Assembly: GCF_003097495.1 (NCBI RefSeq)
Contig: NZ_QEOP01000004.1
Location: 62,001-126,000 of the forward strand
DNA: 64,000 bases
Direction: 5' to 3'
DNA from: Amnibacterium flavum
GTDB lineage: Bacteria; Actinomycetota; Actinomycetes; Actinomycetales; Microbacteriaceae
Position 1 is the stretch's first letter, and each line of letters begins with the position of its first letter. Positions 14,931-31,730 of this stretch are shown one piece after another. The notes beneath the pieces are model-generated. The model saw only the letters and a list, made by a program, of their open reading frames with translations, was not told the origin of the DNA and ran no database searches. The translations under genes were made by a program, and so were the position numbers.

Positions 14931-16334
14931 ATGAGCGCCCTCGGGGCCGTCGAGACCGTCATCACCGGGGCGACCGTGCTCGCGTCGACCACGCGCCCGG
15001 CACCCGCCTACCCGTCCCGGCCCGCCGAGGACACGGCCGCGCGCGGCACCGTCGAGTTCCTCGCCGATCACGCCATCGGGATCGTCGACGGGGGCATCGC
15101 CTGGGTCGTGCCCACGTCGACCGTGCCGCAGCAGATTCTCGACGCAGCGGAGATCATCGATGGCCGCGGCCACGTCGCCATCCCCGGCCTGATGAACTCC
15201 CACACCCACTCGCCCATGTCGATGTTCCGCGGGGCCGCCGAGGACGTCACAACGGCGGACTGGTTCAACAAGTACATGTGGCCGATGGAGATGAACATCA
15301 CCGACCGCGACGTGTACCTCGGTGCGCAGCTCGCGATCGGCGAGATGCTCCTGGCGGGTGTCACGAGCTTCGCGGACCACTACTGGGCGACCGAGCAGAT
15401 CGCGCGAGCCGTCGAGGAGAGCGGGGCGCGCGCCCAGCTCGCGTCGACGTTCTTCTCCTCGAACGGCGCGGCGGGCCTTCGCAGCTCGGCAGAATTCGCG
15501 GAGAAGTGGAACGGGGCGGCCGACGGTCGGATCACCACCGCGCTCGGCCCCCACGCCACCTACACCGTCACCGACGCCGACCTCGAGGCGACGGCCGATA
15601 CGGCCCGACGACTGGGCGTGCCCATCCACATCCACGCCTCCGAGAACTCGCAGCAGACCGAGGCGAGCCTCGCGAAGCGCGGCGTCACACCCATCCAGGT
15701 CCTGCACGACACCGGAATCCTCGACGCCGGCACGATCATCGCCCACGGCACCGGCATCATCGAGAGCGATCTCGAATGGCTCGTCCCGTTCGCCGACCGC
15801 GTCGCGGTCGCGTGCTGCTCGAAGACCTACATGAAGAACGCGCACAGCTCGACACCCGTCCGGATGCTGCACGACGCGGGAATCACGGTCGGTCTCGGCA
15901 CGGACGGGCCCGCCTCGCACAACACCCTCGACATGCTCGAGAGCATGCGGATGCTCTCGCTCAAGCAGAAGGACGTCGAGGAGGACTCGACCTGGCTGAC
16001 CTCGGCCCACGCGCTCGACCTCGCAACACGGCAGAGCGCCGACCTGTTCGGCCTCGGCGAGAAGGTCGGTTCGATCCAACCCGGCAAGCGGGCCGACATC
16101 GTGCTCATCGACCTCGCGGGCCCGCACTACCAGCCGCTGCACGACCTCGCGGCGGCGCTCGTGCTCAGCGCGCGGGCCGGCGATGTGCGCACCGTCCTCG
16201 TCGACGGCCGCGTCGTCGTCCGCGACGGCAGGCTGACGATGCTCGACCTCTCGGAGGCGATCGCCGAGCTCAACGAACGCATTCCGGCGCTCACCGACAC
16301 CTCCAACGGCACGATGCAGGAGTACGCCCCGTGA
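14931..16334 (+). CDS. Amidohydrolase, MTA/SAH deaminase-type (copy 1)
   Basis: A 467-residue cytosine-deaminase-superfamily hydrolase. The metal ligands of subtype III are all visible: NSHTHSPMSMFRG (H-x-H near residues 91-93), HIHASENSQQTE (His with the catalytic Glu three residues on), AHGTGI and LGTDGPASHNTLDML (Asp). This pattern matches methylthioadenosine/S-adenosylhomocysteine deaminases. The ATG at 14931 was chosen because GAGGTGA precedes it; an in-frame start 105 bp earlier gives an arginine-rich non-conserved extension. Its stop overlaps the next gene as GTGA. Deamination of an adenosine-like substrate is likely; exact substrate unknown. Confidence 0.85.
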   Translation: MSALGAVETVITGATVLASTTRPAPAYPSRPAEDTAARGTVEFLADHAIGIVDGGIAWVVPTSTVPQQILDAAEIIDGRGHVAIPGLMNSHTHSPMSMFRGAAEDVTTADWFNKYMWPMEMNITDRDVYLGAQLAIGEMLLAGVTSFADHYWATEQIARAVEESGARAQLASTFFSSNGAAGLRSSAEFAEKWNGAADGRITTALGPHATYTVTDADLEATADTARRLGVPIHIHASENSQQTEASLAKRGVTPIQVLHDTGILDAGTIIAHGTGIIESDLEWLVPFADRVAVACCSKTYMKNAHSSTPVRMLHDAGITVGLGTDGPASHNTLDMLESMRMLSLKQKDVEEDSTWLTSAHALDLATRQSADLFGLGEKVGSIQPGKRADIVLIDLAGPHYQPLHDLAAALVLSARAGDVRTVLVDGRVVVRDGRLTMLDLSEAIAELNERIPALTDTSNGTMQEYAP

Positions 16335-17263
16335 CGGGCGTGCCCCATCGGCTGATCCTCGACAGCGACATCGGCTCCGATATCGACGACGAGTTCACAC
16401 TCGCCATGATCTGGGGCTCGCCGGAACTCGACCTCCTGGGACTGAGCGCCTCCTACGGCGACACCGTGCTGCGCACCCGCATCGCACGCCGGATGGCGGA
16501 GCTCGTCGGGCGGGGGCTGCGCGTCGAACCGGGCGACTCGGCGACGCGATCGGGGCGCGAGATCTGGTGGGCCGGCCACGAGGGCGACGCGTACGGCGAC
16601 CTGACGGGATTCGCCGTCGAGCAGAGCACCGAGGGCGGACCCAGCCGGGGCGCCGCTCTCATCGGCGAACTGGCTACGGGGGAGCCCCGCTCGCACCTGC
16701 TCGCGATCGGCCCGCTCGCGACGGTCGCCTCGGCGCTGGATGAAGATGCCGGACTCGCGGACCGTATCGAGCACCTGTGGATCATGGGCGGCGACTTCGC
16801 CACCGCCGCCGCGGAGCACAACATCCTCTCCGACGTGGATGCCGCGCAGCGGGTGCTGTCGGCCGGAATCCCCACGACACTGGTCCCGGTCGACATCACG
16901 ACCCGCGTCCACCTCCACGAACCGGATGTGGCCCGGATCGAGCAGACCGGCGAGCTCGGCCGACTCCTCGCGGTTCAGGCGCGCGCGTGGATGCGCCGCT
17001 GGGACGAGGACTACGAGATCCCTCACGACCCGCTGACCCTGCTCGCGCTGCTCCGACCCGACCTGTTCGAGTTCACGGGACCGGGCACGGTCGTGGTCTC
17101 CGACGGCACCGACGGGCAAGAGGTGGGGTGCACCCGCTTCATCCCGGGCGCCGGGTCGGTCCGGCTGGTGACCGGTGTCGACGTGGAGGGGGCGGCGCGC
17201 GAGATCGCCGACCGGATCGTCGCAGGACTCGCCCCGATCGGGTCGGGTGGCGCCCCGGCCTAG
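16331..17263 (+). CDS. Nucleoside hydrolase (copy 1)
   Basis: A 310-residue IunH-like N-ribosyl hydrolase starting at GTG in a 4-bp overlap with the amidohydrolase. The calcium-binding N-terminal motif is present as ILDSDIGSDIDDEFTLAM, followed by LLAIGPLATVASAL and LWIMGGDF, the family signatures. It would cleave the base from ribose after or instead of deamination by the coupled amidohydrolase. Its TAG stop lies within CTAG, which also supplies the stop of the convergent LacI gene. Base preference is not predictable from this. Confidence 0.85.
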   Translation: MTGVPHRLILDSDIGSDIDDEFTLAMIWGSPELDLLGLSASYGDTVLRTRIARRMAELVGRGLRVEPGDSATRSGREIWWAGHEGDAYGDLTGFAVEQSTEGGPSRGAALIGELATGEPRSHLLAIGPLATVASALDEDAGLADRIEHLWIMGGDFATAAAEHNILSDVDAAQRVLSAGIPTTLVPVDITTRVHLHEPDVARIEQTGELGRLLAVQARAWMRRWDEDYEIPHDPLTLLALLRPDLFEFTGPGTVVVSDGTDGQEVGCTRFIPGAGSVRLVTGVDVEGAAREIADRIVAGLAPIGSGGAPA

Positions 17264-18273
17264 ACCCGCGGGGGAGCGGTGCTCGCCCTCTCGACGAGCT
17301 CGACCTCGAGGGCGATCCGATCGCCGCCGAGTTCCGCGCCGTGGACGAGGTGCCCGATGAGCAGCTCGGCGGCCCGCGCTCCGAGCTGCCGACCGCGCTG
17401 ACGGATCGTGCTGAGCGCCGGGGTCATGCGGCCCGCGAAGTCCGCATCGTCGAACCCGAGGACCGAGATGTCGTCGGGAACCCTGAGGCCCAGCTCCTCC
17501 CACATCCCGACCGCGCCGAACGCCACGAGATCGTTGCCGGCGAAGACCGCGGTGACACCGGGGTGGTACTTCGCGAGCACCCGGGCGAGCGTGCGGCCGG
17601 CACCCTCGGTGTACTCGCCGCGCAGCAGCAGGGCATCGGGGTAGATCTCGTGGAATCCCTGGACGCGCTCCTCGGTGGAGACGAGCCCGGGAGGGCCTGT
17701 GAACACGGCGACGCGTTCGTGCCCGAGCGAGTGCAGATGCTCGGCGGCGAGCCGGCCTCCGAGCACGTTGTCGGCGAAGATGGTCGGCCGGGTGGTGACG
17801 TGGGGGACCGGTTCATCGACGATCACGACCGGATAGCGGGCGCAGAGCTCCTCGAGGGTCGGGTCGAAGCTCGCGTTGCCCGGGATGTAGACGAGACCGT
17901 CGATCGCGCCGGAGCGGAGCAGGTTGAAGTATCGACGTTCGCGGTGGGGATCGAACTGGGCGGCGCAGATCATCACGCCGTAGTCCTCGGTGTCGGCGGT
18001 GATCTCGATCCCGACGGCGACGTCGGCGTAGAAGTGATTCGAGATGTCGGGGACGATCAGCCCGAGCTGGAACGAACGGGCGGCGGAGGTCTGGCCGGCG
18101 CCGCCCCACGGCGCGTACCCGAGGTCGGGCACGAGGGCGCGGATACGGCGAGCCGTCTCGGGAGCGACGGGACGGCGGCCGGACAGTGCGTGCGAGACGG
18201 TGGTGGGGCTGACTCCGGCAGCACGGGCGACGTCGCGTATGGACACCCGGCCTTCGCCCGGTCTGTCGGTCAT
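17260..18273 (-). CDS. LacI-family transcriptional regulator
   Basis: A 337-residue regulator with an N-terminal LacI helix-turn-helix (VSIRDVARAAGVSPTTVSHALSGRRPVAPETARRIR, about residues 10-45) and a periplasmic-binding-protein-like ligand domain ending DDISVLGFDDADFAGRMTPALSTIRQ. GGGAGGC precedes the ATG. It sits between the first amidohydrolase/hydrolase pair and the ADP-ribosylglycohydrolase genes and is the only local regulator in the nucleoside block. A perfect CAAACGCGTTTG palindrome ahead of the importer genes is a plausible target. A nucleoside or ribose-like effector is inferred. Confidence 0.9.
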   Translation of the reverse strand: MTDRPGEGRVSIRDVARAAGVSPTTVSHALSGRRPVAPETARRIRALVPDLGYAPWGGAGQTSAARSFQLGLIVPDISNHFYADVAVGIEITADTEDYGVMICAAQFDPHRERRYFNLLRSGAIDGLVYIPGNASFDPTLEELCARYPVVIVDEPVPHVTTRPTIFADNVLGGRLAAEHLHSLGHERVAVFTGPPGLVSTEERVQGFHEIYPDALLLRGEYTEGAGRTLARVLAKYHPGVTAVFAGNDLVAFGAVGMWEELGLRVPDDISVLGFDDADFAGRMTPALSTIRQRGRQLGARAAELLIGHLVHGAELGGDRIALEVELVERASTAPPRV

Positions 18274-18359: not shown

Positions 18360-19397
18360 TTATTTCGGGAAGATGAGCGCGCGCGCCAGGTCGGAGAGGA
18401 CGAGTCCGCGCAGCTGCGGCTGCAGCACGCCCCCGACCGTGCCGAGGTCGCCGAGCGTCCCGCCGCGCCAGTCCGCGTCCCACCCGGGTGGAATGCGTTC
18501 GCCGGACGCCCCCGCGAGAGCGCCCACGAGTGCGGGGAGGCTGTCGGAGAGTCGGGAGACGGACAGCGCGAGCGGAAGCGCTTCGGCCAGTCGTCCGCCG
18601 GTCGACCGGATGATCGCGAATGCTGCCGGCACGGTGCGCGCGGCGAGCGCGGGATGCGAGTAGTCGCGTGTGCCGAGCGCGGCGAGAAGTGCCGGAAGAC
18701 GAGCGAAGGCAGGGCCGCCTGCGCCGGCGACGGGTTCGACCGCGTCGAACGAGGCGTCGAGCCAGCTGCCGGTCGGCGCGAGCGAGCGCGCGAACGAGAG
18801 GGCGTCGTCGAGATCGCCCCCGTCGACGAGCGCGGCGATCGCGGCAGCCATGACGGCCGGTGCCCACACGCCGTCGTCCGCGTGCGCGATGCCGGCGTAG
18901 GCGGCGGCGAGCGCGGCGGCTCCCGTCGGATCGCCCGCGAAGCGCACTCCCGCCGCGACGGCGGCGGGCACCGCGGAGTCGTCGCCGCGTGCGGGGTTGT
19001 CGGTGCCGGTCACCGGCGGGCGCAGGCCGCGGGCGGCGTTCGTGGCCGCGATCCGTTCGGCCGGCCCCGCCCATTCGTCGGCGTCGAACAGCTCGCGCCA
19101 TCGGTCGAACAGTGCGTCGATGCCGAGGTCGGCACCGGCCATGACCCGCGCTGCGAGGGCCAGCGATTCGATGTCGTCGGTGCCGGTCATGGTCCCCGTG
19201 TCGAGGGTGAGCCCGAACGGCACCAGCGGGCGACTGACGCGTTCCTCGTCGAGGGCGATGGTGCCCGACCAGAGAGCGCCGCGCAGCCAGGGTTCGCGGG
19301 CGGTCCGGTGGTACTCGGCGGGCAGGCCGAGGGCATCGCCGACCGCCAGGCACTCGAAGGCGGCGACGGCGCGATCGAGACGCGGGTTCGAGCTCAT
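18360..19397 (-). CDS. ADP-ribosylglycohydrolase-family protein (copy 2, degenerate metal site)
   Basis: A 345-residue DraG/ARH-fold protein. The N-terminal CLAVGDALGLPAEY and the first metal motif GTDDIESLAL are recognisable. In place of the C-terminal GGDTDT motif it reads SRLSDSLPALVGALAGAS, so part of the dinuclear magnesium site is lost. It overlaps copy 1 by 4 bp and is certainly cotranscribed with it. These proteins remove ADP-ribose or ribose-type groups; in this neighbourhood a nucleoside-derived substrate is as likely as a modified protein. The catalytic state of this copy is doubtful. Confidence 0.8.
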   Translation of the reverse strand: MSSNPRLDRAVAAFECLAVGDALGLPAEYHRTAREPWLRGALWSGTIALDEERVSRPLVPFGLTLDTGTMTGTDDIESLALAARVMAGADLGIDALFDRWRELFDADEWAGPAERIAATNAARGLRPPVTGTDNPARGDDSAVPAAVAAGVRFAGDPTGAAALAAAYAGIAHADDGVWAPAVMAAAIAALVDGGDLDDALSFARSLAPTGSWLDASFDAVEPVAGAGGPAFARLPALLAALGTRDYSHPALAARTVPAAFAIIRSTGGRLAEALPLALSVSRLSDSLPALVGALAGASGERIPPGWDADWRGGTLGDLGTVGGVLQPQLRGLVLSDLARALIFPK

Positions 19398-20398
19398 CGT
19401 CCGACCTCCGTCAGGTCATCGGCGAGGCGGAGCAGGTCGGCTCCTCGTGTCGCCGTGACGCAGACACCGTGCACGAGTCTCACCCGGTCCACCCACTCGG
19501 GTGGGAACGCATCGATTCCGGCCATGGCGCCCGTGATTGCGCCCGCCATTGCGGCGATCGTGTCGGAGTCGCGACCCATGTTGACGCCGGTGAGGATGGC
19601 CTCGATCGGGTCTCCCTGAGCGAGCGCGACCGCCGCGAGAGTGAAGGCCGTCGCCTCCGGTCCGCTGTCGGCCCATGGGTAGCCGAGGATCGAGATCTCG
19701 TCGTACAGCCTCTGCTCGATCGTCTCGCGCTCCCCGCCGGCGGCGACGATGGCGAGGGCGCGATCGACGGTCCGCGCCGTCCAGGAGACATCGGGAACGG
19801 CCGCGCGGGCGGCGTCGAGCACCGCATCGGTGTCGGCGCCGGTCATCGCGACGCTGACCGCTGCAGCGATCGCCCGCGCCCCGTCGATGCCGTCGCGGGA
19901 GTGCGAGACCGCGCCATCCGCCTCGGCGAGCTCGGCGGCGCGCGCCGGATCGCCCGCCGCCGCGATGCCGAGCGGTGCCGCCCGCATCGCGGCGCCGTCA
20001 CTCCATGCTTCGGCGCAGCGCCGTCCCGACAGGGGAGGCCGCACCCCGGATCGGAGTGCGGCGAGCGCCCCCATCTCGCTGAAGCCGGCGCCGTGGTAGC
20101 CGTCCGTCTGCTGGGCGAGGGCGGTTAGCCAGTCGGCGGCGACGTCATCTCCGGTGAGGTCGGCGCCGCGTCGGATGACCGCTCGGGCGGTCAGCACGGC
20201 GTACTCGGTGTCGTCGGTCCCGGTCGCGGTCTCGTCGGTGAAGGTCGTGATGCGCCCGTGCTCACGGGCGACCTGCTGCCGGGTCATCCCCTCGGTCGGT
20301 GCGCCCATCGCATCGCCGACCGCGAGACCGATCAGGCAGCCGCGAGCGCGCTCGCTCGGGGTCGGAGGCAAAGGCGGGGACTGCGGCGAATCATGCAC
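19394..20398 (-). CDS. ADP-ribosylglycohydrolase-family protein (copy 1)
   Basis: A 334-residue DraG/ARH-fold hydrolase with all metal motifs: RGCLIGLAVGDAMGAPTE near the N-terminus, TGTDDTEYAVLTAR, and GRDSDTIAAMAGAITGAM near the C-terminus. The GTG at 20398 is the only start that keeps the whole first helix; no strong ribosome site precedes it. The family hydrolyses N- or O-glycosidic bonds of ADP-ribose. Divergent transcription from the nucleoside importer operon and the cotranscribed partner suggest a catabolic role on imported ribosides rather than nitrogenase-type protein regulation; that is inference. Confidence 0.85.
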   Translation of the reverse strand: MHDSPQSPPLPPTPSERARGCLIGLAVGDAMGAPTEGMTRQQVAREHGRITTFTDETATGTDDTEYAVLTARAVIRRGADLTGDDVAADWLTALAQQTDGYHGAGFSEMGALAALRSGVRPPLSGRRCAEAWSDGAAMRAAPLGIAAAGDPARAAELAEADGAVSHSRDGIDGARAIAAAVSVAMTGADTDAVLDAARAAVPDVSWTARTVDRALAIVAAGGERETIEQRLYDEISILGYPWADSGPEATAFTLAAVALAQGDPIEAILTGVNMGRDSDTIAAMAGAITGAMAGIDAFPPEWVDRVRLVHGVCVTATRGADLLRLADDLTEVGR

Positions 20399-20479
20399 AC
20401 GAATCAGTATGTCCGGCCGTCGAAGGCGCGTGCAGGGATCCGATCGGGCTGGATTTCCGGGCTGTAACGCCTTCGCGAA

Positions 20480-20491
20480 CAAACGCGTTTG
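20480..20491. promoter_or_regulatory. Perfect LacI-type palindrome upstream of the nucleoside importer operon
   Basis: CAAACGCGTTTG is a 12-bp perfect palindrome with the central CG typical of LacI-family operators. It lies between the divergent ADP-ribosylglycohydrolase and permease genes, about 45 bp ahead of a -10-like TAGTCT. The neighbouring LacI regulator is the obvious candidate ligand-controlled repressor. Both divergent operons could be controlled from here. Confidence 0.6.
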
Positions 20492-20575
20492 CATGCCTCT
20501 CGGCCATCGCTCAGAAAGGTTTCCTCGACCTAGTCTCACCTCACCGTCCCCGCTTCCGACCCCCCTAGGACCTCC

Positions 20576-21742
20576 GTGAACGACATCGATTTCGCGCGGC
20601 TGACACAGCGCGTCGCGGTCCCCGTGGTCGCCGTGATCCTCGCGCTGCTCGTCGGCGGGATCCTCATCGCCATCGCCGGCGTCTCCCCGATCGACGCGCT
20701 CCTGGCCATCGGCCAGTCCGCCTTCAGCTGCTCGCCGAACTTCTGCAACTTCGGTGTGGTGCTGACGACCGCGGCGCCGCTGATCCTCACCACCCTCGGT
20801 GCCGTCATGGTCCTGCGCGCCGGGCTCTTCAGCATCGGCCAGGAGGGGCAGTACGGCATGGGCGCGATCGCCGCCGTGGTCGTCGGCTTCGCCTTCCCGA
20901 TGCCTCCCGGCATCCACGCCGTCGTCGCCCTGCTCGCCGCCGCCGTGGTCGGCGCCGCGGTCGGTTCGATTCCCGCCATCTTCCGCGTCTTCTTCGGTGC
21001 CAACGAACTGATCGTCAGCATCATCGTCAACTCGGTGGCCGGCCTGCTCCTGAGCTTCCTCGTCAACTACCCGCTCCGCGACTCCGGCGGAACCGCCTCG
21101 TACACGCCGATCGTCGAGGAGAGCGCGCAGCTCACCTCGTTCGATCCGAACACGAAGCTCGGTGTCAACCTCCTCATCGCGATCCTCTTGATCGTCGTCG
21201 TCTGGATCTACATGTCGAAGACACCGTGGGGCTACGAGCAGCGCATGGCCGGCGACGCGCCGATCTTCGCCCGCTACACCGGGCTCCGCACCCGCGTCGC
21301 CGTCATCCGCGCCGCCTGCCTCGGCGGCGCACTGGCCGGAGTGGGCGGGGGAGTGCAGGCGCTCGGGATGAACTACCGCGTGATCGACGGCTTCATGGAC
21401 GGCACCGGCTTCAACGGACTGACGGCGGCGATCCTCGGTGGAACCACCGTGATCGGCGGGAGCTTCGCGGCTCTGCTCTTCGCCTCGATCACCGTCGGGG
21501 CCGTCAACGGTCTCCAGATCCTGCTGGGCGTGCCCCGCGAGATCGGCTCCGCGCTCCTGGCGCTGATGATCCTGTTCGTCTCTATCCAGGCCCCGCTGCT
21601 GGTCCGGCTCGAGCTGTGGCTCGGCAAGCGCCGCGGAACCGCCGCGGTCACGGCACCGCCGCTCGTGCCGCCCGGCGACCTCAACGACGATCCGGCCGAC
21701 GGCGAGCCGAAGACCCCCGCGACGTCTGCCGAGGTGCGCTGA
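20576..21742 (+). CDS. Nucleoside-type ABC transporter permease 1
   Basis: A 388-residue inner-membrane permease of the BMP-linked branched-chain/nucleoside class (NupP/YufP-like). It has about nine hydrophobic segments and the family signatures LRAGLFSIGQEGQYGMGAIAA and GVQALGMNYRVIDGFMDGTGFNGLTAAILGG. It starts at GTG after an AGGA site. The C-terminal 30 residues form a soluble proline/acid-rich tail. It is the first gene of an operon carrying the second permease, binding protein, ATPase and an amidohydrolase. Transport of purine nucleosides is the usual job of this class. Confidence 0.88.
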   Translation: MNDIDFARLTQRVAVPVVAVILALLVGGILIAIAGVSPIDALLAIGQSAFSCSPNFCNFGVVLTTAAPLILTTLGAVMVLRAGLFSIGQEGQYGMGAIAAVVVGFAFPMPPGIHAVVALLAAAVVGAAVGSIPAIFRVFFGANELIVSIIVNSVAGLLLSFLVNYPLRDSGGTASYTPIVEESAQLTSFDPNTKLGVNLLIAILLIVVVWIYMSKTPWGYEQRMAGDAPIFARYTGLRTRVAVIRAACLGGALAGVGGGVQALGMNYRVIDGFMDGTGFNGLTAAILGGTTVIGGSFAALLFASITVGAVNGLQILLGVPREIGSALLALMILFVSIQAPLLVRLELWLGKRRGTAAVTAPPLVPPGDLNDDPADGEPKTPATSAEVR

Positions 21743-21744
21743 CC

Positions 21745-22719
21745 GTGGACCTCCTCATCGCGCTCTTCACACCCGAGATGCTCCGCACGGGCATCGGGCT
21801 CACGACCCCCATCCTCTTCGGGGCGATCGCCTCCGCACTCAGCAACCGGGCGGGCGTCCTCAACCTCGCCATCGAGGCGAAGATGCTCATCGGTGCGTTC
21901 GTGGGACTGTTCGCCCTGTCGGCGACCCAGTCGATCCCGCTCGCGATCCTGTTCGCGGCGGTGGCCGGCGCCTCCACCGGACTCCTGATGGCCGCCGCCC
22001 ACGCGATCAAGGTCGACCTGATCATCTTCGCGATCGGGCTCAACCTGCTCGCCGTCGAGCTCTCCGTGTACCTGATGCGCGTGCTCTTCGGCAACGTCGG
22101 CGTGTGGCGCCCCGAGGTGCCGGCGATGGAGAAGTACGACATCCCGGTCATCGGCGACATCCCCATCATCGGCCCCCTCGTCAGCGGTCACAACGCCCTC
22201 GTCTACCTCGCCTTCCTCGCGGCCATCGGATACGCGGTGCTGTTCCGCTACCGTGCCGGTCGCCACCTGCTCGCCGTGGGGGAGTCTCCCAAGGCGGCCG
22301 CAGCGGCCGGCATCTCCACGGGCCGCGTGCAGACCTGGGCGCTCGCCGCATCGGGTGCGCTCGCCGGCATCGGCGGCAGCTACCTCACGGTCGGCGACCT
22401 CGGGCTCTTCGCCCGCAACATGACCGACGGCGATGGCTGGATCGCGGTGACCGCGGCGCTCCTCGCCATGAGCCGCCCCCGGTTCATCGTCCCCGCCGCC
22501 CTCCTGTTCGGCTTCTCGGACGCCTTCGCGATCCGGTTGCAGAGCGTCACCGACCTGCCCCAGGTCGTCGTGCAGCTGATCCCCTTCGCCGCCACCCTCC
22601 TCGTGCTCGCCTTCGTCGGGGTCCGGGTGATGCGAGCGGAGAAGACCCTCGGGATGTTCCGCCCACCGCGGCGCGGCATCTTCGAGCGCTTCAGGCAGGC
22701 ACCCCGCGTGGGCGCCTGA
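21745..22719 (+). CDS. Nucleoside-type ABC transporter permease 2
   Basis: A 324-residue permease of the NupQ/YufQ type, starting at GTG 2 bp after the stop of permease 1. Typical family sequence includes LSNRAGVLNLAIEAKMLIGAFVG, the periplasmic loop around MEKYDIPVIGDIP, and VGESPKAAAAAGIS, the cytoplasmic loop that contacts the ATPase. About eight to nine membrane segments are visible. It forms a heterodimeric channel with permease 1. Confidence 0.88.
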   Translation: MDLLIALFTPEMLRTGIGLTTPILFGAIASALSNRAGVLNLAIEAKMLIGAFVGLFALSATQSIPLAILFAAVAGASTGLLMAAAHAIKVDLIIFAIGLNLLAVELSVYLMRVLFGNVGVWRPEVPAMEKYDIPVIGDIPIIGPLVSGHNALVYLAFLAAIGYAVLFRYRAGRHLLAVGESPKAAAAAGISTGRVQTWALAASGALAGIGGSYLTVGDLGLFARNMTDGDGWIAVTAALLAMSRPRFIVPAALLFGFSDAFAIRLQSVTDLPQVVVQLIPFAATLLVLAFVGVRVMRAEKTLGMFRPPRRGIFERFRQAPRVGA

Positions 22720-23917: not shown

Positions 23918-25471
23918 ATGAACGACAAGACATCCGCCCCGCTGCTGCGGCTCACCGGACTTCGGAAGTTCTTCGCGTCCTCCGGGGTGCTGGCCGTCGC
24001 CGACGTCTCCCTCGACGTCCACGCCGGTGAGGTCGTCGCCCTCGTCGGCGAGAACGGCACCGGCAAGACCACCCTCATGAACCTGCTCTTCGGCGCCCTC
24101 CCCATGGATGCTGGCTCGATCGAGGTCGACGGGGAGCCCGTCGCGATCAAGGGGCCCGAGGACGCCATCCGCGCCGGGATCGGAATGGTCCAGCAGCACT
24201 TCGCGCTCGTCCCGTCCTTCACGGCAGCGCAGAACGTGATGCTCGGCCGCGAACCGCTCAAGCGCGGTGCTCTCGACGACGCCGAGGCCGAGCGCGAGGT
24301 CGGGGCTCTCGGCGAGCGTCTCGGCTTCCCGATCGACCCGAAGAAGCTCGTCGCCGCGCTCCCCATCGGTCTGCAGCAGCGGGTTGAGATCCTCAAGGCC
24401 CTGGCGGGGGACACCCGCCTCCTCATCCTGGACGAGCCGACCGCGGTTCTCACGCCCAAGGAGGCGGACGAGCTCATCGTCTCGGTCCGCAAGCTGGCGG
24501 CTCTCGGCACCGCCGTCGTCTTCATCAGCCACAAGCTCCCCGAGGTGCTCGCGGTCTCCGATCGGGTCGTCGTCATGCGGCGCGGCCACATCGTCGACGA
24601 GATGCCCACCTCCGAGGCCACCCCCGCCGCGATCGCCCGGGCTATGGTCGGCCGCGACGTCCTGCTCTCCGCCACCGTCGACCACATCGCTCCCGGCGCC
24701 CCCGTGCTCGAGGTCGCGGGTCTCGACGCGTCCCAGGTCAGCGCCGGGGACTCGGGCCTCAGCGACGTCGGCCTCACCGTGCGAGCCGGAGAGATCGTCG
24801 GCGTCGCGGGCGTGAGCGGCAACGGTCAGGGCAACCTCGTCGACGCCATCGCGGGGCTCCGCAAAATCGACGCCGGCAGCATTAAGATCGACGGCGTCGA
24901 GGTCTCGGGCATGTCGCCCCGCGGCGTGCGCCGAGCCGGCCTCGCGCACATCGCCGAGGATCGCATGCACGTCGGGCTCAACCGTGCGGCGACCCTCGAG
25001 GAGAACGCGGTCGCCACGACCGTCTTCACCCGGCGCTTCAACCGGGCCGGCTGGCTCCGCCGCGGAGCGATCCACACCTTCGCTCGCAAGCTCATCGAGC
25101 AGTACGAGATCCGCGGCGCCGCCCCCACCCGCATCATCGAGAGCCTCTCGGGCGGCAATCTGCAGAAGATCGTCATCGGCCGGGAGCTCGAGGGCTCGCC
25201 CAAGCTCATCATCGCGAACCAGCCGACCCGCGGTCTCGACGTCGGCAGCATCGAGTTCGTCCACCGCGAGCTGCTCGCCGCCCGCGGTCGCGGCGCCGGG
25301 CTCCTGCTCGTCTCGGCGGAGCTCGAGGAGCTCCAGCGCCTCTCGGACCGAATCGTCGTGCTCTACGAGGGGCGGCTCTCCGGACCGTTCGACCGCGGGC
25401 AGCTCAGCACCTACGAGATCGGCGCCCTGATGGCCGGGCAGTCGCTGTCCGCCGCAGAGGCCGATGCATGA
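23918..25471 (+). CDS. Nucleoside ABC transporter ATP-binding protein (two ABC domains)
   Basis: A 517-residue duplicated ATPase of the sugar/nucleoside import class. Domain 1 (about 1-230) has Walker A GENGTGKTTLMNL and Walker B LLILDEPTAVLTPKEAD; its signature is replaced by ALPIGLQQRVEILKAL. Domain 2 (about 255-500) has the degenerate P-loop GVSGNGQGNLVD usual in this class, an intact SLSGGNLQKIVIGRE signature and LIIANQPTRGLDVG. GGAGGACACGA precedes the ATG. It completes the importer and overlaps the following amidohydrolase by 4 bp, tying import to catabolism. Confidence 0.9.
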   Translation: MNDKTSAPLLRLTGLRKFFASSGVLAVADVSLDVHAGEVVALVGENGTGKTTLMNLLFGALPMDAGSIEVDGEPVAIKGPEDAIRAGIGMVQQHFALVPSFTAAQNVMLGREPLKRGALDDAEAEREVGALGERLGFPIDPKKLVAALPIGLQQRVEILKALAGDTRLLILDEPTAVLTPKEADELIVSVRKLAALGTAVVFISHKLPEVLAVSDRVVVMRRGHIVDEMPTSEATPAAIARAMVGRDVLLSATVDHIAPGAPVLEVAGLDASQVSAGDSGLSDVGLTVRAGEIVGVAGVSGNGQGNLVDAIAGLRKIDAGSIKIDGVEVSGMSPRGVRRAGLAHIAEDRMHVGLNRAATLEENAVATTVFTRRFNRAGWLRRGAIHTFARKLIEQYEIRGAAPTRIIESLSGGNLQKIVIGRELEGSPKLIIANQPTRGLDVGSIEFVHRELLAARGRGAGLLLVSAELEELQRLSDRIVVLYEGRLSGPFDRGQLSTYEIGALMAGQSLSAAEADA

Positions 25472-26796
25472 CCCGAGTCGTACTCGTCGCCGACACCGTC
25501 TACCTCGGTGACGAGGCCGGCACCGCGCTGACCCGCGCGGCGGTCGAGATCACCGACGGCACGATCACGGCGGTCGGCCCGCTGACCGGCCCGACCCCGG
25601 TCGGCCCGGACATCGTCGATCTGGGCGACCAGGTGCTGATGCCCGGCCTCGTCAACGCTCACACGCATACGCCGATGACGCTGTTCCGCGGTGTCGCCGA
25701 TGGCTACTCCCTCCTCACCCTCGAGGGCTGGCGCACCGTCGTGCTGCCGCTGGAACAGCAGCTGAGCACCGACTTGATGACCGCGGCAGTCGAGGTGAGC
25801 CTGGCCGAGATGATCGCCAGTGGCACCACCTACTTCGCCGACCAGTACTTCGCCGTCGAGGCGTACGACTCCGTCGTGCGCAGCTCGGGGCTGCGCGCCG
25901 AGCTCGCCTACGGGATCATCGGGCTCAGCGGCCGGGAAACGCGGGAGGCGAGCCTCGCGGCCGCGGAAGCATTCATCGAGAACGCGCCCCTCGACCCCCT
26001 CGTGCACTCATGGGTGGGCCCGCACGCCTTCTTCGTCGACAACCAGCTCGAGAACATCGAAGCCGAGATGGCGCTCGCCATGAACCACGGGATCGGCCTG
26101 CACACCCACTTCGGAACCTCGGGCGCGGAGGATCAGGTCTGCCGAGAGCGCTTCGGCATGGGGGCGCTCGCGATGCTCGACCGACTCGGCGTGCTGGACA
26201 GGCCGCTGATCCTGGCTCACGCCAACACCGTCGACCAGGAAGGCCTCGGGCTTCTCTCCGGGCGTCCCGTCACCCTGGTGGCCGCACCCTCCGTGGCGAT
26301 GATGAGCGGGGCGCCGCCGACCCCGGTCCGCGCGGCGCTCGATGCCGGCGTCAACATCGCTCTCGGCACGGACAGTCTGTCGAGCAACAGCGCAGACCTG
26401 TTCGAGGAGATGCGCACGCTCGGCAAGGTGGCCACGCACGAGGCTCGACGGCCTTCCGTGCTGTCGCCGCGAGAACTGCTCGGGCTCGCGACGTGGCGCG
26501 GTCATCGAGCGCTCGACACGCGCAGCGATACGTCGAACGGCCGGATCGTCGCGGGCGCCGTCGGTGATCTCATCGCGCTGCCCGCCGCCTCCCTGCACCG
26601 CGGACCGACCGGAGCGCAGACGCTCGAGGCCGCACTCGTCTACGGCGCATCGGGATTCAACAGCTCGACGGTGATGGTCTCCGGACGCTTCCTGAAACGC
26701 GACGGCGAGCTTCTGTCGGTCGACCTCGGCGGAGCCCGCGAGAAGAGGGAGCTGGACTTCGAGCGCCTGACCCGCTCGCAGTCCGTCCCCGTCTGA
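25468..26796 (+). CDS. Amidohydrolase (copy 2, Thr in place of catalytic Glu)
   Basis: A 442-residue amidohydrolase of the deaminase/chlorohydrolase group. The metal ligands are visible: NAHTHTPMTLFRG, LHTHFGTSGAEDQ, LAHANTV and LGTDSLSSNSADLFEEM. Three residues after the strand-5 histidine, where MTA/SAH deaminases have Glu, there is Thr (HFGT). The reaction may thus differ from simple adenosine deamination, for example loss of another C6 substituent. Translation is coupled to the ATPase gene by ATGA. It is 60-70 percent similar by eye to copy 3, and the two share WVGPHAFFVDNQ. Confidence 0.82.
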   Translation: MTRVVLVADTVYLGDEAGTALTRAAVEITDGTITAVGPLTGPTPVGPDIVDLGDQVLMPGLVNAHTHTPMTLFRGVADGYSLLTLEGWRTVVLPLEQQLSTDLMTAAVEVSLAEMIASGTTYFADQYFAVEAYDSVVRSSGLRAELAYGIIGLSGRETREASLAAAEAFIENAPLDPLVHSWVGPHAFFVDNQLENIEAEMALAMNHGIGLHTHFGTSGAEDQVCRERFGMGALAMLDRLGVLDRPLILAHANTVDQEGLGLLSGRPVTLVAAPSVAMMSGAPPTPVRAALDAGVNIALGTDSLSSNSADLFEEMRTLGKVATHEARRPSVLSPRELLGLATWRGHRALDTRSDTSNGRIVAGAVGDLIALPAASLHRGPTGAQTLEAALVYGASGFNSSTVMVSGRFLKRDGELLSVDLGGAREKRELDFERLTRSQSVPV

Positions 26797-26843
26797 CCCC
26801 GTCCGCCTTCATCCCGACCCCGATCACCAACCGAGGAGCCCCC

Positions 26844-27422
26844 ATGCCCGTTCCCCACAGCCAGGACCCCTGGACCCGTCTCACCAGCGTCCGCGGCTAC
26901 GCGGCCGATGAACTCATCTCCGCACTGCAGAAGACGATCCGTCGCGGCGAGCTCAAGCTGGCCCTGCTCGTCGCCCGCGAGATGGTCGAGAGCAGCGCCG
27001 AGCTCGAGGAGATCATGTGGTCGCGACTGTGCGTCATGTCCTGCGAGGACGTCGGAGACGGCAGCTGGCGCGAACCCGTCGTCGTCAACAGCCTGTACGA
27101 GATGCACCTGCGTCTCGGCCGCGAGGCCGGCGACCGCTGGCTGTTCGCGGTGCACGCGATCCGTCTGCTCGCCACCTCGCCGAAGGACCGCACCAGCGAT
27201 GAGTGGGCCAACCTGATCCTGCACGAGATCGCGACCGACCATCCGTTCGAGATCCCCGACTACGCCCTCGACGTGCACACCCGTCGCGGACAGGAGGCCG
27301 GTCGCACCGTCGACGACTTCTGGGCCGAGGGGTCGAAGATCTTCCCCGAGCGCGAGGGCCGCGACACCTCCGTCCGCGACGAGATCATCCGCATCCGCGA
27401 AGCCGGCGAGTGGCGGGCATGA
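26844..27422 (+). CDS. Free-standing RarA/MgsA C-terminal-like domain protein
   Basis: A 192-residue soluble protein that lines up along its length with the C-terminal clamp-loader-like domain of the AAA+ ATPase RarA/MgsA but has no ATPase domain. Matching segments are ELISALQKTIRRGELKLALL (RarA: LISALHKSxRGSDxxAAL), VMSCEDVGDG (ASEDVGxA), AIRLLATSPKD (AIxYLAxAPKS) and the C-terminal SKIFPE (xxYFPE). In RarA this region tetramerises and binds SSB. Here it stands between importer/amidohydrolase and nucleoside hydrolase genes and overlaps the latter by 4 bp. Its role in this operon is unknown; the fold call is by eye. Confidence 0.65.
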   Translation: MPVPHSQDPWTRLTSVRGYAADELISALQKTIRRGELKLALLVAREMVESSAELEEIMWSRLCVMSCEDVGDGSWREPVVVNSLYEMHLRLGREAGDRWLFAVHAIRLLATSPKDRTSDEWANLILHEIATDHPFEIPDYALDVHTRRGQEAGRTVDDFWAEGSKIFPEREGRDTSVRDEIIRIREAGEWRA

Positions 27423-28393
27423 ATCCGCGGATCCCTCTCGTCATCGACACGGACACCGCCGCCGACGACTGCTTCGCGCTCCTCGTCGGCCTGCTCGATC
27501 CGCGCGCGGACCTGCTCGCCGTCACCATGGTCGCGGGCAACGTCGGATTCGACCAGCAGGTGCACAACGCGCTCCTCACCCTCGAGCTGGCCGGGCGCCT
27601 CGGAGAGGTACCCGTCCACCTCGGGGCTCGCGAGCCGCTCGAACGCGAGTGGCGCAGCGCGAGCGAGGTGCACGGCGACGGCGTCGGCGGGCTGCGTCGG
27701 GCGGAGACCGGCCACACCACCTCGGACGAGCACGCGGCCGATGCGCTCGTCCGTCTCGTGCGCGAGCACCGGGGCGAGCTCACGATCGTCGCGATCGGGC
27801 CGCTGACGAACATCGCGCTCGCGGTCCAGCGCGACCCCGAGTTCGCCGCCAACGTGGGTCGGCTGACCGTGATGGGTGGCTCGATCAACGGGCGCGGCAA
27901 CATCACCCCCGCCGCCGAGTTCAACATCTACGTCGACCCCGAGGCCGCGCAGATCGTCTTCGACGCCGGTTTCGCGGATCTGGTCGTCGTGCCGTGGGAT
28001 CCGACCACTCTGCGCGATCTCGTCTTCGACGCGGACGCGGTGGCCCGGATCGCCGCGCAGGACACCGTGCTGTCCCGGTTCTTCGTGCGCGCGAACCAGG
28101 CGACGTTCGACTTCGATCTGGGCGCGGGCCTCGCGGGATCGACCCACCCCGATTCGCTCTCGGTGCTCGTCTCGCTGGATCCGACCTTCGCGGTCTCGAC
28201 GGGCCGCTACCGGGTCGATGTCGAGACCGTGGGGGAGCTCACCCGCGGCGCGACCGTATTCGACTGGAAGCCCGACGCGGTGCCGAACGCGCTCGCGATC
28301 GAGGCGGTCGATGCGTCCCGCTTCTTCTCGTACCTGTCCGAACTCCTCGCGAGCGAGCCGACCGGGGCTGTCGTCCCCGAGGCGCTGGCATGA
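27419..28393 (+). CDS. Nucleoside hydrolase (copy 2)
   Basis: A 324-residue IunH-type hydrolase starting in a 4-bp overlap with the preceding gene. Motifs: LVIDTDTAADDCFALLVG (calcium site), HGDGVGGL, IVAIGPLTNIALAVQ, LTVMGGSINGRGNITPAAEFNIYVDPEAA, all in the expected order. It ends in ATGA with nucleoside hydrolase copy 3. It should cleave purine or pyrimidine ribonucleosides to base and ribose in the cytoplasm. Confidence 0.9.
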   Translation: MNPRIPLVIDTDTAADDCFALLVGLLDPRADLLAVTMVAGNVGFDQQVHNALLTLELAGRLGEVPVHLGAREPLEREWRSASEVHGDGVGGLRRAETGHTTSDEHAADALVRLVREHRGELTIVAIGPLTNIALAVQRDPEFAANVGRLTVMGGSINGRGNITPAAEFNIYVDPEAAQIVFDAGFADLVVVPWDPTTLRDLVFDADAVARIAAQDTVLSRFFVRANQATFDFDLGAGLAGSTHPDSLSVLVSLDPTFAVSTGRYRVDVETVGELTRGATVFDWKPDAVPNALAIEAVDASRFFSYLSELLASEPTGAVVPEALA

Positions 28394-29385
28394 CCCCGTC
28401 CGGCGGCGCGGAGGGCCGCGCGGCGATCTGGGCCGATGTCGACACCGGAGTCGATGACGCACTCGCCCTCCTCTACCTCGCCCGCAGTCCGCGCGTCGAC
28501 CTCGTCGGGGTCTCCGCGGTCGCCGGGAACGTCGATGTCGACCTCGCCCTCTCGAACACCGCCGCGGTCCTCGACGCGATCGCCGCACCCGCCGTCCCGC
28601 TGCACCGGGGGGCTGCGAAGCCGCTGCTCGGCCCCCATCGCGATGCGACGCAGTTCCACGGCCCCGGCGGGCTGGGCGCGGCCGTCCTTCCCGCGGCGCG
28701 ACGGCCGATCGATCCGCGATCCGCGGTCGAGGGCCTCCGCGACGCGGTCCGCGCTCGGCCGGGCGAGATCACGCTGCTCGCGCTCGGACCCCTGACGAAC
28801 GTCGCCCTGTTCCTCGCCGCCCACCCCGATGACGCCCGCGGACTGCGCCGGATCATCGCGATGACGGGCGCGCTCGACGGCGGCAACGCCACGGCGTCGG
28901 CCGAGTTCAACTGCTGGCACGATCCCGAGGCCGTGCAGATCGTGATCGAGTCGCCGATCCCCACCACGATCTTCCCGCTGGAGATGTTCGGGACGGCGAC
29001 CCTGCCGCTCGCGGTCGCCGAGAACTGGAGCGACTCCGCCGAGCCCGAGCTGGCCCTCGGATCGGTCTGGCTGAAGCACTGCAGCCTCCCCGGCACGGGC
29101 ACCGTGATGCTCGGAGACGCGGCCGTGGCGTGCATCACCGCGCACCCCGGCCTCGCCAAGGCCACGACCCTTCCCGTCGAGATCGACCTCGCGCCGGGCA
29201 TCTCCCGCGGACGGATGGTGGCCGATCGTCGCGGCCGGATCGGCGAGCACGAGGCGCACGGCGGAGCCGCGCTCGGAACGACAGCAGAGATCGTGACCTC
29301 CGTCGACGCCGGAGCGCTCGCCGCCGAATACATCGCCGTACTCGAAGGGGCCTCGGCGCGTCCGGACCCCGCCCGCACCCCCTGA
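28390..29385 (+). CDS. Nucleoside hydrolase (copy 3)
   Basis: A 331-residue IunH-type hydrolase coupled by ATGA to copy 2. The calcium motif is ADVDTGVDDALALLYL, followed by LLALGPLTNVALFLA and ASAEFNCWHDPEAVQIVI. The segment that normally reads P-L-D-V-T is PLEMFGTATL, and ALDGGNATASAEF lacks the usual GG-x-x-x-x-GN spacing, so specificity probably differs from copy 2. The two tandem copies may take different bases or act as a heteromer; both are inference. Confidence 0.87.
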   Translation: MTPSGGAEGRAAIWADVDTGVDDALALLYLARSPRVDLVGVSAVAGNVDVDLALSNTAAVLDAIAAPAVPLHRGAAKPLLGPHRDATQFHGPGGLGAAVLPAARRPIDPRSAVEGLRDAVRARPGEITLLALGPLTNVALFLAAHPDDARGLRRIIAMTGALDGGNATASAEFNCWHDPEAVQIVIESPIPTTIFPLEMFGTATLPLAVAENWSDSAEPELALGSVWLKHCSLPGTGTVMLGDAAVACITAHPGLAKATTLPVEIDLAPGISRGRMVADRRGRIGEHEAHGGAALGTTAEIVTSVDAGALAAEYIAVLEGASARPDPARTP

Positions 29386-29434
29386 CCCACGGCGGAACCG
29401 CCGCACCCGACCCGCCATCATCCTGAGGAGAACA

Positions 29435-30769
29435 GTGACCCAGCTCATCGTCGCCGACCACGTCTGGACCGGGGATCCGGCCAACCCCGTGCTCTCTCCC
29501 GGAGCCATCGAGATCGAGGAGGGTCGCGTGCTCTCCGTCTCGGCGGTCACGGGCGCACGTCCGAGCGGTCCCGAGGTGACGGACCTCGGTGCGAGCGTGG
29601 TGATGCCCGGCCTCGTGAACGCGCACGCGCACACCCCGATGTCGCTCATGCGCGGCGTCGCCGAAGGCGTCTCGCTGCTCACGATGGAGGGCTTCCTCGA
29701 GACCCTCCGCGCCAATGAGGAGTACCTGACGCCCGAACTGGTTCCCGCGTCGGTGGCGGTGTCCTGCGCGGACATGATCGCCCACGGCACGACCGCCTTC
29801 GCCGATCAGTACTTCTTCGCGGACGAGATCGTGCCGACGGTCCAGCAGTCGGGGCTCCGCGCGCGCATCGCCTGGGGGATCGTCGAGCTCGGCGACGACG
29901 ACGCCCGCGCCCGCGAGCTGGCCGCCACGACCGCGTTCGTCGAGTCGACGCAGTCCGACGAGCTGGTGCGCGGCTGGGTGGGCCCGCACGCCTTCTTCGT
30001 CGACAACCAGCCCGACGCCATCCGGATCGAGGTCGACCTCGCGGCCCGGCTCGGCATCGGCCTGCACGCGCATTTCTCGACCTCGAGCGAGGAGGACGAC
30101 TTCTGTCTCGCCGAGTACGGCCGTCCCGCCCTGCCGGTGATGCGCGAGTTCGGGCTGCTCGACCTCCCGCTGATCCTCGCCCACTGCAACACGGTGCCCG
30201 TGGACCAGCTGCCGATCCTCGCCGGGACTCGCGCGACGATGGCGGTCATCCCGTCGGTCGCGATGCAGAGCGGTGCCCCCGCCGCTCCCGTGCGCGAGGC
30301 CCTCGACGCCGGCGTCAATGTCGCGCTCGGATCCGACAACGTCTGCAACAACACCGGGGTGGACCTCTTCGAGGAGATGCGCGCACTCGGCAAGCTGGCC
30401 GCGTTCACCTCGAAGGTCCCGAATCAGGTGACCTCGCGGGAGATCCTCGAGATCGCCACCGTGCGGGGCCACCGCGCGCTCGACGGAGGAGTCGACGACG
30501 GCCGCATCGTGCCGGGTGCGGTCGCCGACCTCATCGCGATCCCCGTCGCGGCGATCCACCGCGGGCCGCGGGGCGCGCAGTCGCTCGAGTCGGCGCTCGT
30601 CTACTGCACCTCCGGAGCGTCGGTCAGTCACACGATGGTCGCCGGGCGCTGGCTCATGGCCGACGGAGTGGTGCAGACCATCGACGCCCCGGCGGCGCTG
30701 GCCCGTCAGCAGACGGACTGGGACACGCTCAGCGGCAGACGCCTCGTAGCGGAAGCCGTCTCCATCTGA
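29435..30769 (+). CDS. Amidohydrolase (copy 3, Thr in place of catalytic Glu)
   Basis: A 444-residue amidohydrolase starting at GTG after GAGGAG. Ligand motifs: NAHAHTPMSLMRG, LHAHFSTSSEEDD, LAHCNTV and LGSDNVCNNTGVDLFEEM. As in copy 2, Thr replaces the Glu that follows the strand-5 histidine in MTA/SAH deaminases. The shared WVGPHAFFVDNQ and overall layout show copies 2 and 3 arose by duplication, while copy 1 is more distant. It is the last gene of the long rightward series; a GTTCCGG hairpin follows it. Confidence 0.82.
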   Translation: MTQLIVADHVWTGDPANPVLSPGAIEIEEGRVLSVSAVTGARPSGPEVTDLGASVVMPGLVNAHAHTPMSLMRGVAEGVSLLTMEGFLETLRANEEYLTPELVPASVAVSCADMIAHGTTAFADQYFFADEIVPTVQQSGLRARIAWGIVELGDDDARARELAATTAFVESTQSDELVRGWVGPHAFFVDNQPDAIRIEVDLAARLGIGLHAHFSTSSEEDDFCLAEYGRPALPVMREFGLLDLPLILAHCNTVPVDQLPILAGTRATMAVIPSVAMQSGAPAAPVREALDAGVNVALGSDNVCNNTGVDLFEEMRALGKLAAFTSKVPNQVTSREILEIATVRGHRALDGGVDDGRIVPGAVADLIAIPVAAIHRGPRGAQSLESALVYCTSGASVSHTMVAGRWLMADGVVQTIDAPAALARQQTDWDTLSGRRLVAEAVSI

Positions 30770-30800
30770 GCGCCGCCCCCTCCCTCCCCACGCGGATACA

Positions 30801-30865: not shown

Positions 30866-30960
30866 CACGCCCGATGCGTCTGTAGCGGGAGATTCCCGCC
30901 CGGGGATCAGCGCACCGCCCCGCGTGGGTAGAGTTGGCGCCGCCTGAAGGAGGACATCCG

Positions 30961-31008
30961 ATGAGCCGCATGCAGTCCCGTCGACCGCTGGCGGAGGTCC
31001 CCGCGTGA
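30961..31008 (+). CDS. Possible 15-codon leader ORF upstream of the nucleosidase gene
   Basis: An ATG with a strong AAGGAGGAC ribosome site starts the peptide MSRMQSRRPLAEVPA, whose TGA overlaps the GTG of the nucleosidase gene by 4 bp. The nucleosidase GTG has no ribosome site that strong of its own: GGCGGAGG inside the leader is the nearest. A -10-like TAGAGT lies at 30929-30934. Translational coupling through this leader is plausible; the peptide itself may have no function. Confidence 0.4.
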   Translation: MSRMQSRRPLAEVPA

Positions 31009-31730
31009 CCGTCGTCGTCATCGCCGCGATGCGCGAGGAGGCGAGTGCAGTCGCAGCTCTCGCCGACAGCATCGAGTCCGAGGTCGAAACGCCGACCGGC
31101 GTCGTCTGGACGGGATTCATCGACGGCGAGGCGCTGCTCGTCGTGCAGAGCGGGGTGGGCCTCGTGAACGCCGCGAGCGCGGCTACCGCCGTCCTCGAGA
31201 GCCTCGATCTCACCGAGCCCGTCACCGTCATCAGCGCCGGAAGCGCCGGGGGAGTGGGCGACACGGTGTCGGTCGGCGATGTCGTCGTCGCCGCAGCGAC
31301 GCTGCACGGCGACGCCGACGCACGCGCCTTCGGCTACGCGCTCGGCCAGGTGCCCGGCATGCCGGCACGGTACGACGCCCCGGACGGTCTCGTCCGCGCG
31401 GCGAGCAACGCCATCGCGGGCGCCGGGTATCCGACGCACAGCGGCGTCGTCGTCTCGACCGACTCGTTCGTCGCGCCGGTGAGGGCGCGCAGCATCCGCG
31501 ACAACTTCGCGGGAACGCTGGCGGTCGACATGGAGTCCGCCGCGATCGCCCAGGTCGCCTACCGCTACCAGGTGCCGTTCATCTCGGTGCGGGCGATCTC
31601 CGACCTCGCCGATCAGGAGACCGGCGACGTGTTCGACGCCAACATCGACGATGCGGCAGCGCGCTCGGCGCACGTCGTGGTCTCGATCATCCGGGGCCTC
31701 TACCTGGAGGACGAGTCGAGCGGCGCCTGA
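31005..31730 (+). CDS. 5'-Methylthioadenosine/S-adenosylhomocysteine nucleosidase
   Basis: A 241-residue PNP/UDP-family nucleosidase. The N-terminus VVIAAMREEASAVAAL contains the conserved E of the MTAN active site, GVGLVNAASAATAVLE and VISAGSAGG form the phosphate/ribose side, and AVDMESAAIAQVAYRYQVPFISVRAISDLAD carries the DMES motif and the purine-binding Asp near the end. It hydrolyses MTA, SAH and 5'-deoxyadenosine to adenine plus thio-ribose. It lies just outside the importer operon behind a separate promoter, consistent with a link to adenosine-like substrates of that block. Confidence 0.88.
   Translation: MTVVVIAAMREEASAVAALADSIESEVETPTGVVWTGFIDGEALLVVQSGVGLVNAASAATAVLESLDLTEPVTVISAGSAGGVGDTVSVGDVVVAAATLHGDADARAFGYALGQVPGMPARYDAPDGLVRAASNAIAGAGYPTHSGVVVSTDSFVAPVRARSIRDNFAGTLAVDMESAAIAQVAYRYQVPFISVRAISDLADQETGDVFDANIDDAAARSAHVVVSIIRGLYLEDESSGA

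Follow-up and report, generated by a model that had tools for sequence, protein, structure and literature searches.

A putative nucleoside uptake and catabolic locus with two ADP-ribosylglycohydrolase genes in Amnibacterium flavum

Gene content and layout of the locus

The window analysed here is a stretch of 64,000 nucleotides (64 kb) from Amnibacterium flavum (contig NZ_QEOP01000004.1, positions 62,001 to 126,000), and the subject is a block of 15 genes at 14931-31730, in which two genes of the ADP-ribosylglycohydrolase (ARH) family stand among genes for the import and breakdown of nucleosides. Open frames and codon-position G+C served to place the genes, and Pfam and NCBIfam scans to name them, the start codons being our own choice; gene content, recurrence, operator-like sites, residue conservation and folds were then computed. 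An earlier reading of the letters alone (the sequence-only reading) had assigned the gene families of the block, and the scans confirmed them: three ATZ/TRZ-type amidohydrolases (AmdH1 to AmdH3), three IU_nuc_hydro proteins or nucleoside hydrolases (IunH1 to IunH3), two ADP_ribosyl_GH proteins (ARH1 and ARH2), a BMP-type ATP-binding cassette (ABC) importer, a LacI-family regulator, a nucleosidase for 5'-methylthioadenosine and S-adenosylhomocysteine (MTA/SAH), and MgsAC, a stand-alone protein resembling the C-terminal domain of RarA/MgsA. The source genome comprises 3.57 Mb in 13 contigs, and across the whole of it there are two matches to PF03747, which are ARH1 and ARH2 alone, six to PF01156 and four to PF02608.

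From left to right, AmdH1 (14931-16334) and IunH1 (16331-17263) are encoded on the plus strand and are followed on the minus strand by LacI (17260-18273), ARH2 (18360-19397) and ARH1 (19394-20398). The GTG start of ARH1 at 20398 is our reading; the analyses of this protein used 19394-20374, so that residue 1 is the codon ending at 20374. The plus strand then carries the two importer permeases perm1 (20576-21742) and perm2 (21739-22719), the BMP/PnrA-type substrate-binding lipoprotein (22800-23870), the double ABC ATPase (23918-25471), AmdH2 (25468-26796), MgsAC (26844-27422), IunH2 (27419-28393), IunH3 (28390-29385), AmdH3 (29435-30769) and the MTA/SAH nucleosidase (31005-31730).

Coupling by 4-base overlaps, as the sequence-only reading had described, was found in six same-direction pairs (AmdH1/IunH1, ARH2/ARH1, perm1/perm2, ATPase/AmdH2, MgsAC/IunH2 and IunH2/IunH3), and IunH1 overlaps LacI convergently. 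The strands rule out the whole block as a single operon. It consists of three units, namely a minus-strand unit of ARH1, ARH2 and LacI, a divergent plus-strand unit from the importer to AmdH3, and the AmdH1-IunH1 pair. Scans for promoters and terminators gave no excess over shuffles.

Recurrence in Rathayibacter and operator-like sites

LacI, the BMP importer, an amidohydrolase of the AmdH2/AmdH3 type, IunH1, IunH2 and the ARH1-ARH2 pair recur, together with an adenosine deaminase (Ada), within about 18 kb in two Rathayibacter genomes, Rathayibacter sp. Leaf185 (L071 = G299) and G491. In Leaf185 the set occupies 17.4 kb, and the identities to the window are 43% for LacI, 72% and 69% for perm1 and perm2, 70% for BMP, 75% for the ATPase, 59% for ARH1, 43% for IunH1, 71% for IunH2 and 59-62% for the amidohydrolase against AmdH2 and AmdH3. 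Over both genomes the ranges are 68-72% for the permeases, 69-70% for BMP, 75% for the ATPase, 68-71% for IunH2, 42-43% for IunH1, 58-59% for ARH1 and 47-48% for ARH2. The gene order differs from that of the window: the Rathayibacter IunH1 lies divergent from ARH1, the Ada gene (PF00962) overlaps ARH2 in the place of AmdH1, and DUF222 and dehydrogenase-like genes separate the two halves of the cluster in Leaf185, whose layout is also that of G491. Because the core recurs in this way, the block is more than a chance assembly. The importer occurs in 3 of 15 Rathayibacter genomes and ARH1 (E < 1e-130) in those same three, a coincidence of 1 in 455 by count; a fourth genome holds a remote ARH only (1.7e-25).

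The same genomes point to a common control site. The palindrome TACAAAACGTTTTGTA lies between ARH1 and IunH1 in Leaf185 and G491 and between Ada and IunH1 in G485, the third importer-bearing Rathayibacter genome, and two related palindromes lie between LacI and perm1 in each of the three. A strict operator pattern, TGCAAAACGTTTTGCA with up to three mismatches, has two matches in the first 20-kb stretch of Leaf185 (reached by 0 of 200 shuffles) and one in the second (2 of 200 shuffles). In Leaf185 and G491 the site stands at the importer promoter and at that of ARH1/IunH1, the stretches read having no other copy, and since both promoters share it, the ARH genes appear tied to the importer in Rathayibacter. 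The window LacI, encoded behind ARH2, is 43-46% identical to the LacI of the Rathayibacter importer, compared with 29-31% to the LacI proteins linked to ARH genes in six other genomes. The nucleoside import-and-dismantle set proposed by the sequence-only reading thus gains support, the ARH genes belonging to the set in two other genomes and the operator-like sites linking them there to the importer.

For a wider view, seven ARH1 proteins were compared with genome contigs, which gave 515 relatives, and the best 80 loci were analysed; 12 of these are shorter than 13 kb, and gene counts on the 80 are lower bounds. The ARH1 of G230, another genome of the family, is identical to that of Microterricola pindariensis. 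Their 1,504,672 bases contain 24 matches to the strict pattern, 23 of them within 500 nt upstream of ARH1 and all in the 32 closest loci, and 57 of the 80 loci have no site upstream of ARH1. With 100 shuffled palindromes, a mean of 0.08 of the 32 closest loci was matched and the largest count was 4; the 23 site-bearing loci are related to one another and are not independent events. The site stands at ARH1 in four of six Microbacteriaceae relatives (G178 and G103 are without it), and it is absent from the stretches read of G029, G232 and G107, three genomes with related importers, and from the region upstream of AmdH1. The palindrome upstream of ARH1 is put forward here for the first time as a candidate operator.

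Proteins of the block

The two ARH proteins differ in their metal sites. ARH1 matches PF03747 with 191-193 bits and ARH2 with 90 bits (cut-off 26.2). In ARH1, E28, D54, D55, D269, D271 and T272 are invariant in all 30 aligned rows, and alignment to DraG and others places among them the TDD motif, the C-terminal DxD(T/S) motif and the glutamate after the first helix, which is catalytic in human ARH3. ARH2 keeps D74, D75 and D285 in 19 of 19 sequences, but two of the 19 have the glutamate and none has the first Asp of DxD, so that its metal site is incomplete despite the family match. The ARH1 model (predicted local distance difference test, pLDDT, 94.9) matches the folds of MJ1187, DraG and ARH3, with a Foldseek E-value of 2e-12 against MJ1187 and template modelling (TM) scores of 0.75-0.80. 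The ARH2 model (pLDDT 87.3, residues 57-67 of low confidence) also has the ARH fold with poorer fits (TM to query 0.52-0.62), and these fold comparisons carry no ligand information. ARH1 is likely an active enzyme of its own specificity, as judged from residues and model, and ARH2 is probably its constant partner with a reduced metal site, either a subunit or an enzyme of modified specificity.

The importer is complete, with a Bmp binding protein, two BPD_transp_2 permeases and a double ATPase, which is the full subunit set of the BMP/PnrA purine-nucleoside importers; none of these is described together with ARH genes in the portions of the literature surveyed. PDB matches of the binding protein include BmpD, BmpA and TmpC; BmpD is reported to be a nucleoside-binding protein (PMC7093131), and binding is reported for BmpA as well. 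Family membership therefore suggests a putative nucleoside importer. A vitamin B6 importer was considered, as putative NCBIfam B6 models match all four subunits, but was rejected, these matches falling below cut-off. Relatives of the binding protein (E 1e-20) occur in 39 of 299 Microbacteriaceae genomes. The nearest, at 49-51%, are in G029, G232 and G107, where the importer order is the same and is followed by an orthologue of AmdH3 (73-82%). Behind it, G107 and G232 carry DeoR, BtpA and FGGY kinase genes by Pfam, in place of the IunH and ARH genes of the window, and the genes of G029 match these in size only. The DeoR-BtpA-FGGY genes (L053:12560-15692 and L055:10450-13510) may be a second route for the same ligand; no account of BtpA combined with FGGY was found in the open-licence literature. 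The source genome has a second BMP gene, some 4 kb away from an IunH gene (G000:C1:1545865-1551331), so nucleoside uptake is probably redundant.

AmdH1 aligned over its full length to 4dyk and was matched to 4f0r, an MTA/SAH deaminase. It retains HxHxxE and has the metal and acid-base residues of MTA/SAH/5'-deoxyadenosine deaminases, and the NCBIfam equivalog cut-offs were not reached; by sequence it is a relative of the MTA/SAH deaminases. In AmdH2, AmdH3 and six relatives (8 of 8 sequences), threonine replaces the HxxE glutamate expected of ATZ/TRZ deaminases, and because of this replacement both may not be ordinary deaminases. IunH1, a divergent nucleoside hydrolase, is identified by NCBIfam and PDB matches and by a PF01156 match at G000:C4:78352-79188 of the source genome, and IunH3 has GD at the position of the C-terminal His motif of IunH1 and IunH2.

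The MTA/SAH nucleosidase exceeds its NCBIfam cut-offs and starts 235 nt after AmdH3, with no match in the 80 ARH1 loci or the Leaf185 stretch. Because of the gap and the lack of a counterpart in these loci, it is probably an ordinary housekeeping neighbour outside the set, and it was dropped from the set on these grounds.

MgsAC matches MgsA_C, the RarA C-terminal family, weakly but above threshold (28.9 bits, cut-off 27). A relative at E 1e-10 occurs in one other of the 299 family genomes, G097 (71%), whose copy has no Pfam match, and none occurs in the Rathayibacter clusters. In all five neighbourhoods that were read, stand-alone copies of 39-71% identity adjoin transporter genes: an NMT1-type ABC operon in G097, an ABC permease in Subdoligranulum and phosphotransferase system EIIC genes in Cetobacterium, E. 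faecium and E. raffinosus, the two Enterococcus loci being near relatives. A 33% copy in Bradyrhizobium is not beside transporter genes. The MgsAC-type family (26844-27422 in the window; L182:14094-14675, L180:7983-8597, L181:7980-8597, L184:7980-8606 and L185:7980-8597) has many invariant residues and stands beside transporters in Actinomycetota, Bacillota and Fusobacteriota. Remoter copies occur in 79 viral contigs at 25-43% identity. No description of a role for the RarA C-terminal domain in uptake operons was found in the open-licence literature.

Outside the block, a GGTCT short tandem repeat lies at 14720-14750, about 200 nt upstream of AmdH1, and further left a DHA2-family major facilitator superfamily (MFS) efflux gene above its NCBIfam cut-off is divergent from a TetR-like regulator (12284-13939 and 13885-14529). 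To the right, 32058-35813 encodes a protein of 1251 aa, residues 623-1238 of which resemble the C-terminal half of the anti-phage proteins ProA, Hhe and PADLOC PDC-S37, far under the NCBIfam cut-offs.

A catabolic reading of the ARH genes and its rivals

With a probability of roughly 0.55, the block is a regulon under LacI control that takes up and catabolises an adenosine-type nucleoside, and in which ARH1 cleaves a ribosyl bond of the imported compound. The nucleoside would enter through the BMP importer, its adenine-type base would be converted by a deaminase (AmdH1 here, Ada in Rathayibacter), and the IunH enzymes would cut the beta-N-ribosidic bond to release base and ribose. The target of ARH1 would be a ribosyl bond within the small molecule taken up and not a modified protein, most likely an alpha-linked ribose, an assumption based on the chemistry of ARH enzymes, and ARH2 would be its subunit or a partner of modified specificity. 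All substrates, the direction of every step and the alpha-linkage are predictions. The adenosine-type compound gains support because AmdH1 is replaced by Ada in Rathayibacter, and this replacement is the best hint at its nature. The sequence-only reading had suggested an N6- or 5'-modified adenosine, possibly a cytokinin-type riboside; the adenosine type holds up, but no gene was found that supports a cytokinin or a 5'-modified nucleoside.

Several observations weigh against this reading. The 64-kb window holds no match to the strict operator pattern, and the palindrome AACAAACGCGTTTGCA between the divergent ARH1 and perm1 units (20478-20493, no strand) is a relaxed match only, with two mismatches to TGCAAANNNNTTTGCA; it is the sole match of the relaxed pattern in the window (shuffle mean 0.07), yet this pattern was framed after the palindrome had been seen, and one match also turns up with 7 of 100 shuffles. 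ARH1 has Arg268 in 30 of 30 rows, compared with Gly in MJ1187, DraG, 2cwc and YegU, and Asp126 compared with Asn in DraG, 2cwc and YegU; with both differences beside the metal site, known ARH chemistry may not transfer. ARH2 relatives (E 1e-20) occur in 7 of the 299 family genomes, the window's own included, and in six of six other Microbacteriaceae loci the ARH1-ARH2 pair stands beside LacI and a CUT1 importer (a substrate-binding protein and two permeases); in three of the six, PfkB also adjoins the pair. G029, G232 and G107, which have the importer and AmdH3, lack any PF03747 match. In G485 the cluster is without the ARH pair; the pair of this genome is found 1.1 Mb from the cluster, together with a LacI of its own, and groups with a CUT1-linked pair in the joined ARH1 and ARH2 tree (a separate tree of ARH1 alone was also made). 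In the joined tree a single clade of the window, Leaf185 and G491 pairs is neither rejected nor established (approximately unbiased test, p-AU 0.288). Among the matches listed for 196 members of the class (107 with ARH, 101 with IunH), inspection by eye gave a rough negative, no other ARH gene lying within 20 kb of an IunH gene.

The leading rival is that two unrelated modules, a BMP nucleoside module and an ARH-LacI unit that came from a CUT1 sugar system, became neighbours by transfer and share no pathway. The importer-amidohydrolase unit and the ARH-LacI unit do occur separately, and they are separable because the importer of G029, G232 and G107 lacks ARH genes and the ARH pair elsewhere accompanies CUT1 importers; G485 holds both, far apart. 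The two are joined in the window and in Rathayibacter. The neighbourhood search suggested by the sequence-only reading therefore had a divided result: the grouping is not unique to this genome, but most relatives have their ARH pair with a CUT1 importer, and the genomes of the nearest importers have no ARH. It is neither unique to the window nor general. A mere juxtaposition is nevertheless somewhat unlikely, as both modules stand together in two Rathayibacter genomes in a different gene order with one type of site at both promoters, and in the window LacI lies within the ARH unit, beside which no CUT1 importer was seen.

The wider distribution of ARH pairs favours the catabolic reading, although its count of CUT1-type permeases also suits the two-module rival. 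CUT1-type permeases occur in at least 46 of the best 80 ARH1 loci, LacI in at least 43, PfkB in at least 38 and two or more ARH genes in at least 71, and IunH, AmdH and Ada each occur in one, the same Leaf185 locus. Association with sugar importers and PfkB kinases is the pattern expected of small-molecule catabolism. The CUT1 systems of Actinomycetota have the ARH1-ARH2 pair, a divergent LacI and the type of operator-like site in common with the window, but their importer is of sugar type and they lack IunH and amidohydrolase; we know of no name for them, and none was found in the open-licence literature. Three or more ARH genes occur in 38 of the best 80 loci, and Streptomyces and relatives (L105-L150, e.g., L106:9878-16452) have three or four ARH paralogues arrayed together with a PfkB kinase, the L106 array adjoining CoA-transferase and HpcH aldolase genes. 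G129 and G271 each have an IunH gene (34%) some 15 kb away from the ARH pair, next to a PfkB kinase.

The sequence-only reading had held that ARH enzymes in such a set fit no known pathway, yet the yegTUV operon of E. coli K-12 offers a precedent. It is compact, has 4-base overlaps and combines a putative nucleoside symporter with an ARH protein and a PfkB-type sugar kinase, and YegU shares 32% identity with ARH1 across 318 columns, with GGDTDT and TNGAAMR where ARH1 has GRDSDT and SDGAAMR. It differs in its MFS symporter in place of an ABC importer, its single ARH, its kinase, its GntR-type regulator and the lack of IunH and deaminase; the 15 genes of the block, as scanned, include no PfkB and do not form such a transporter-ARH-PfkB operon. 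The functions of yegTUV are called unknown, and its regulator (GgaR/YegW) is linked to ADP-glucose and glycogen, in the available part of the source (PMC10819704). No published account of an ARH-BMP-IunH cluster was found in the open-licence literature.

The ARH proteins could instead be ADP-ribosylhydrolases of proteins or nucleic acids, with a part in regulating the importer or in protecting the cell. DraG regulates nitrogenase, and Tri1 and Lmo0067-type proteins confer immunity; the fold and metal ligands are common to these enzymes, and there are weak NCBIfam matches to DraG and Tri1, far under the cut-offs (57/337 and 51/490 bits). This is improbable, as the 15 genes include no ADP-ribosyltransferase (the search covered the block and not the rest of the genome), the genome has no further PF03747 protein, importers, LacI and PfkB kinases accompany the pairs across several phyla, and neither ARH has a PADLOC match, on which ground a defence function was rejected. 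Just as improbable is a broad salvage set with no special substrate, in which ARH1 and IunH process the two anomers, alpha and beta, of ordinary nucleosides, or their N- and O-ribosides. Three IunH proteins, three amidohydrolases and altered motif residues in IunH3, AmdH2 and AmdH3 hint at several substrates, but nothing speaks directly for such a salvage set, and LacI control and the narrow distribution of ARH2 point to a special compound.

The catabolic reading can be extended, at long odds, to a nutritional branch of the ARH fold, in which ARH1-ARH2, as a pair of alpha-ribosidases, would open ribosylated nucleosides, for example 2'-O-alpha-ribosyladenosine from poly(ADP-ribose) breakdown, Ada or AmdH1 and IunH would finish the adenosine, and the cluster would scavenge eukaryotic ADP-ribose-type debris. 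Such a ribosyladenosine fits as a substrate, though as a guess.

Most annotations of PF03747 proteins describe enzymes that remove ADP-ribose from proteins. That the set is found again in a second genus, with a candidate control site in common, suggests that ARH relatives can serve nutrition. If this is true, many bacterial ARH genes, carried by 107 of the 196 sampled class members, would need a second annotation meaning, and the function of E. coli yegTUV would become approachable through a system with a named importer, regulator and operator-like site.

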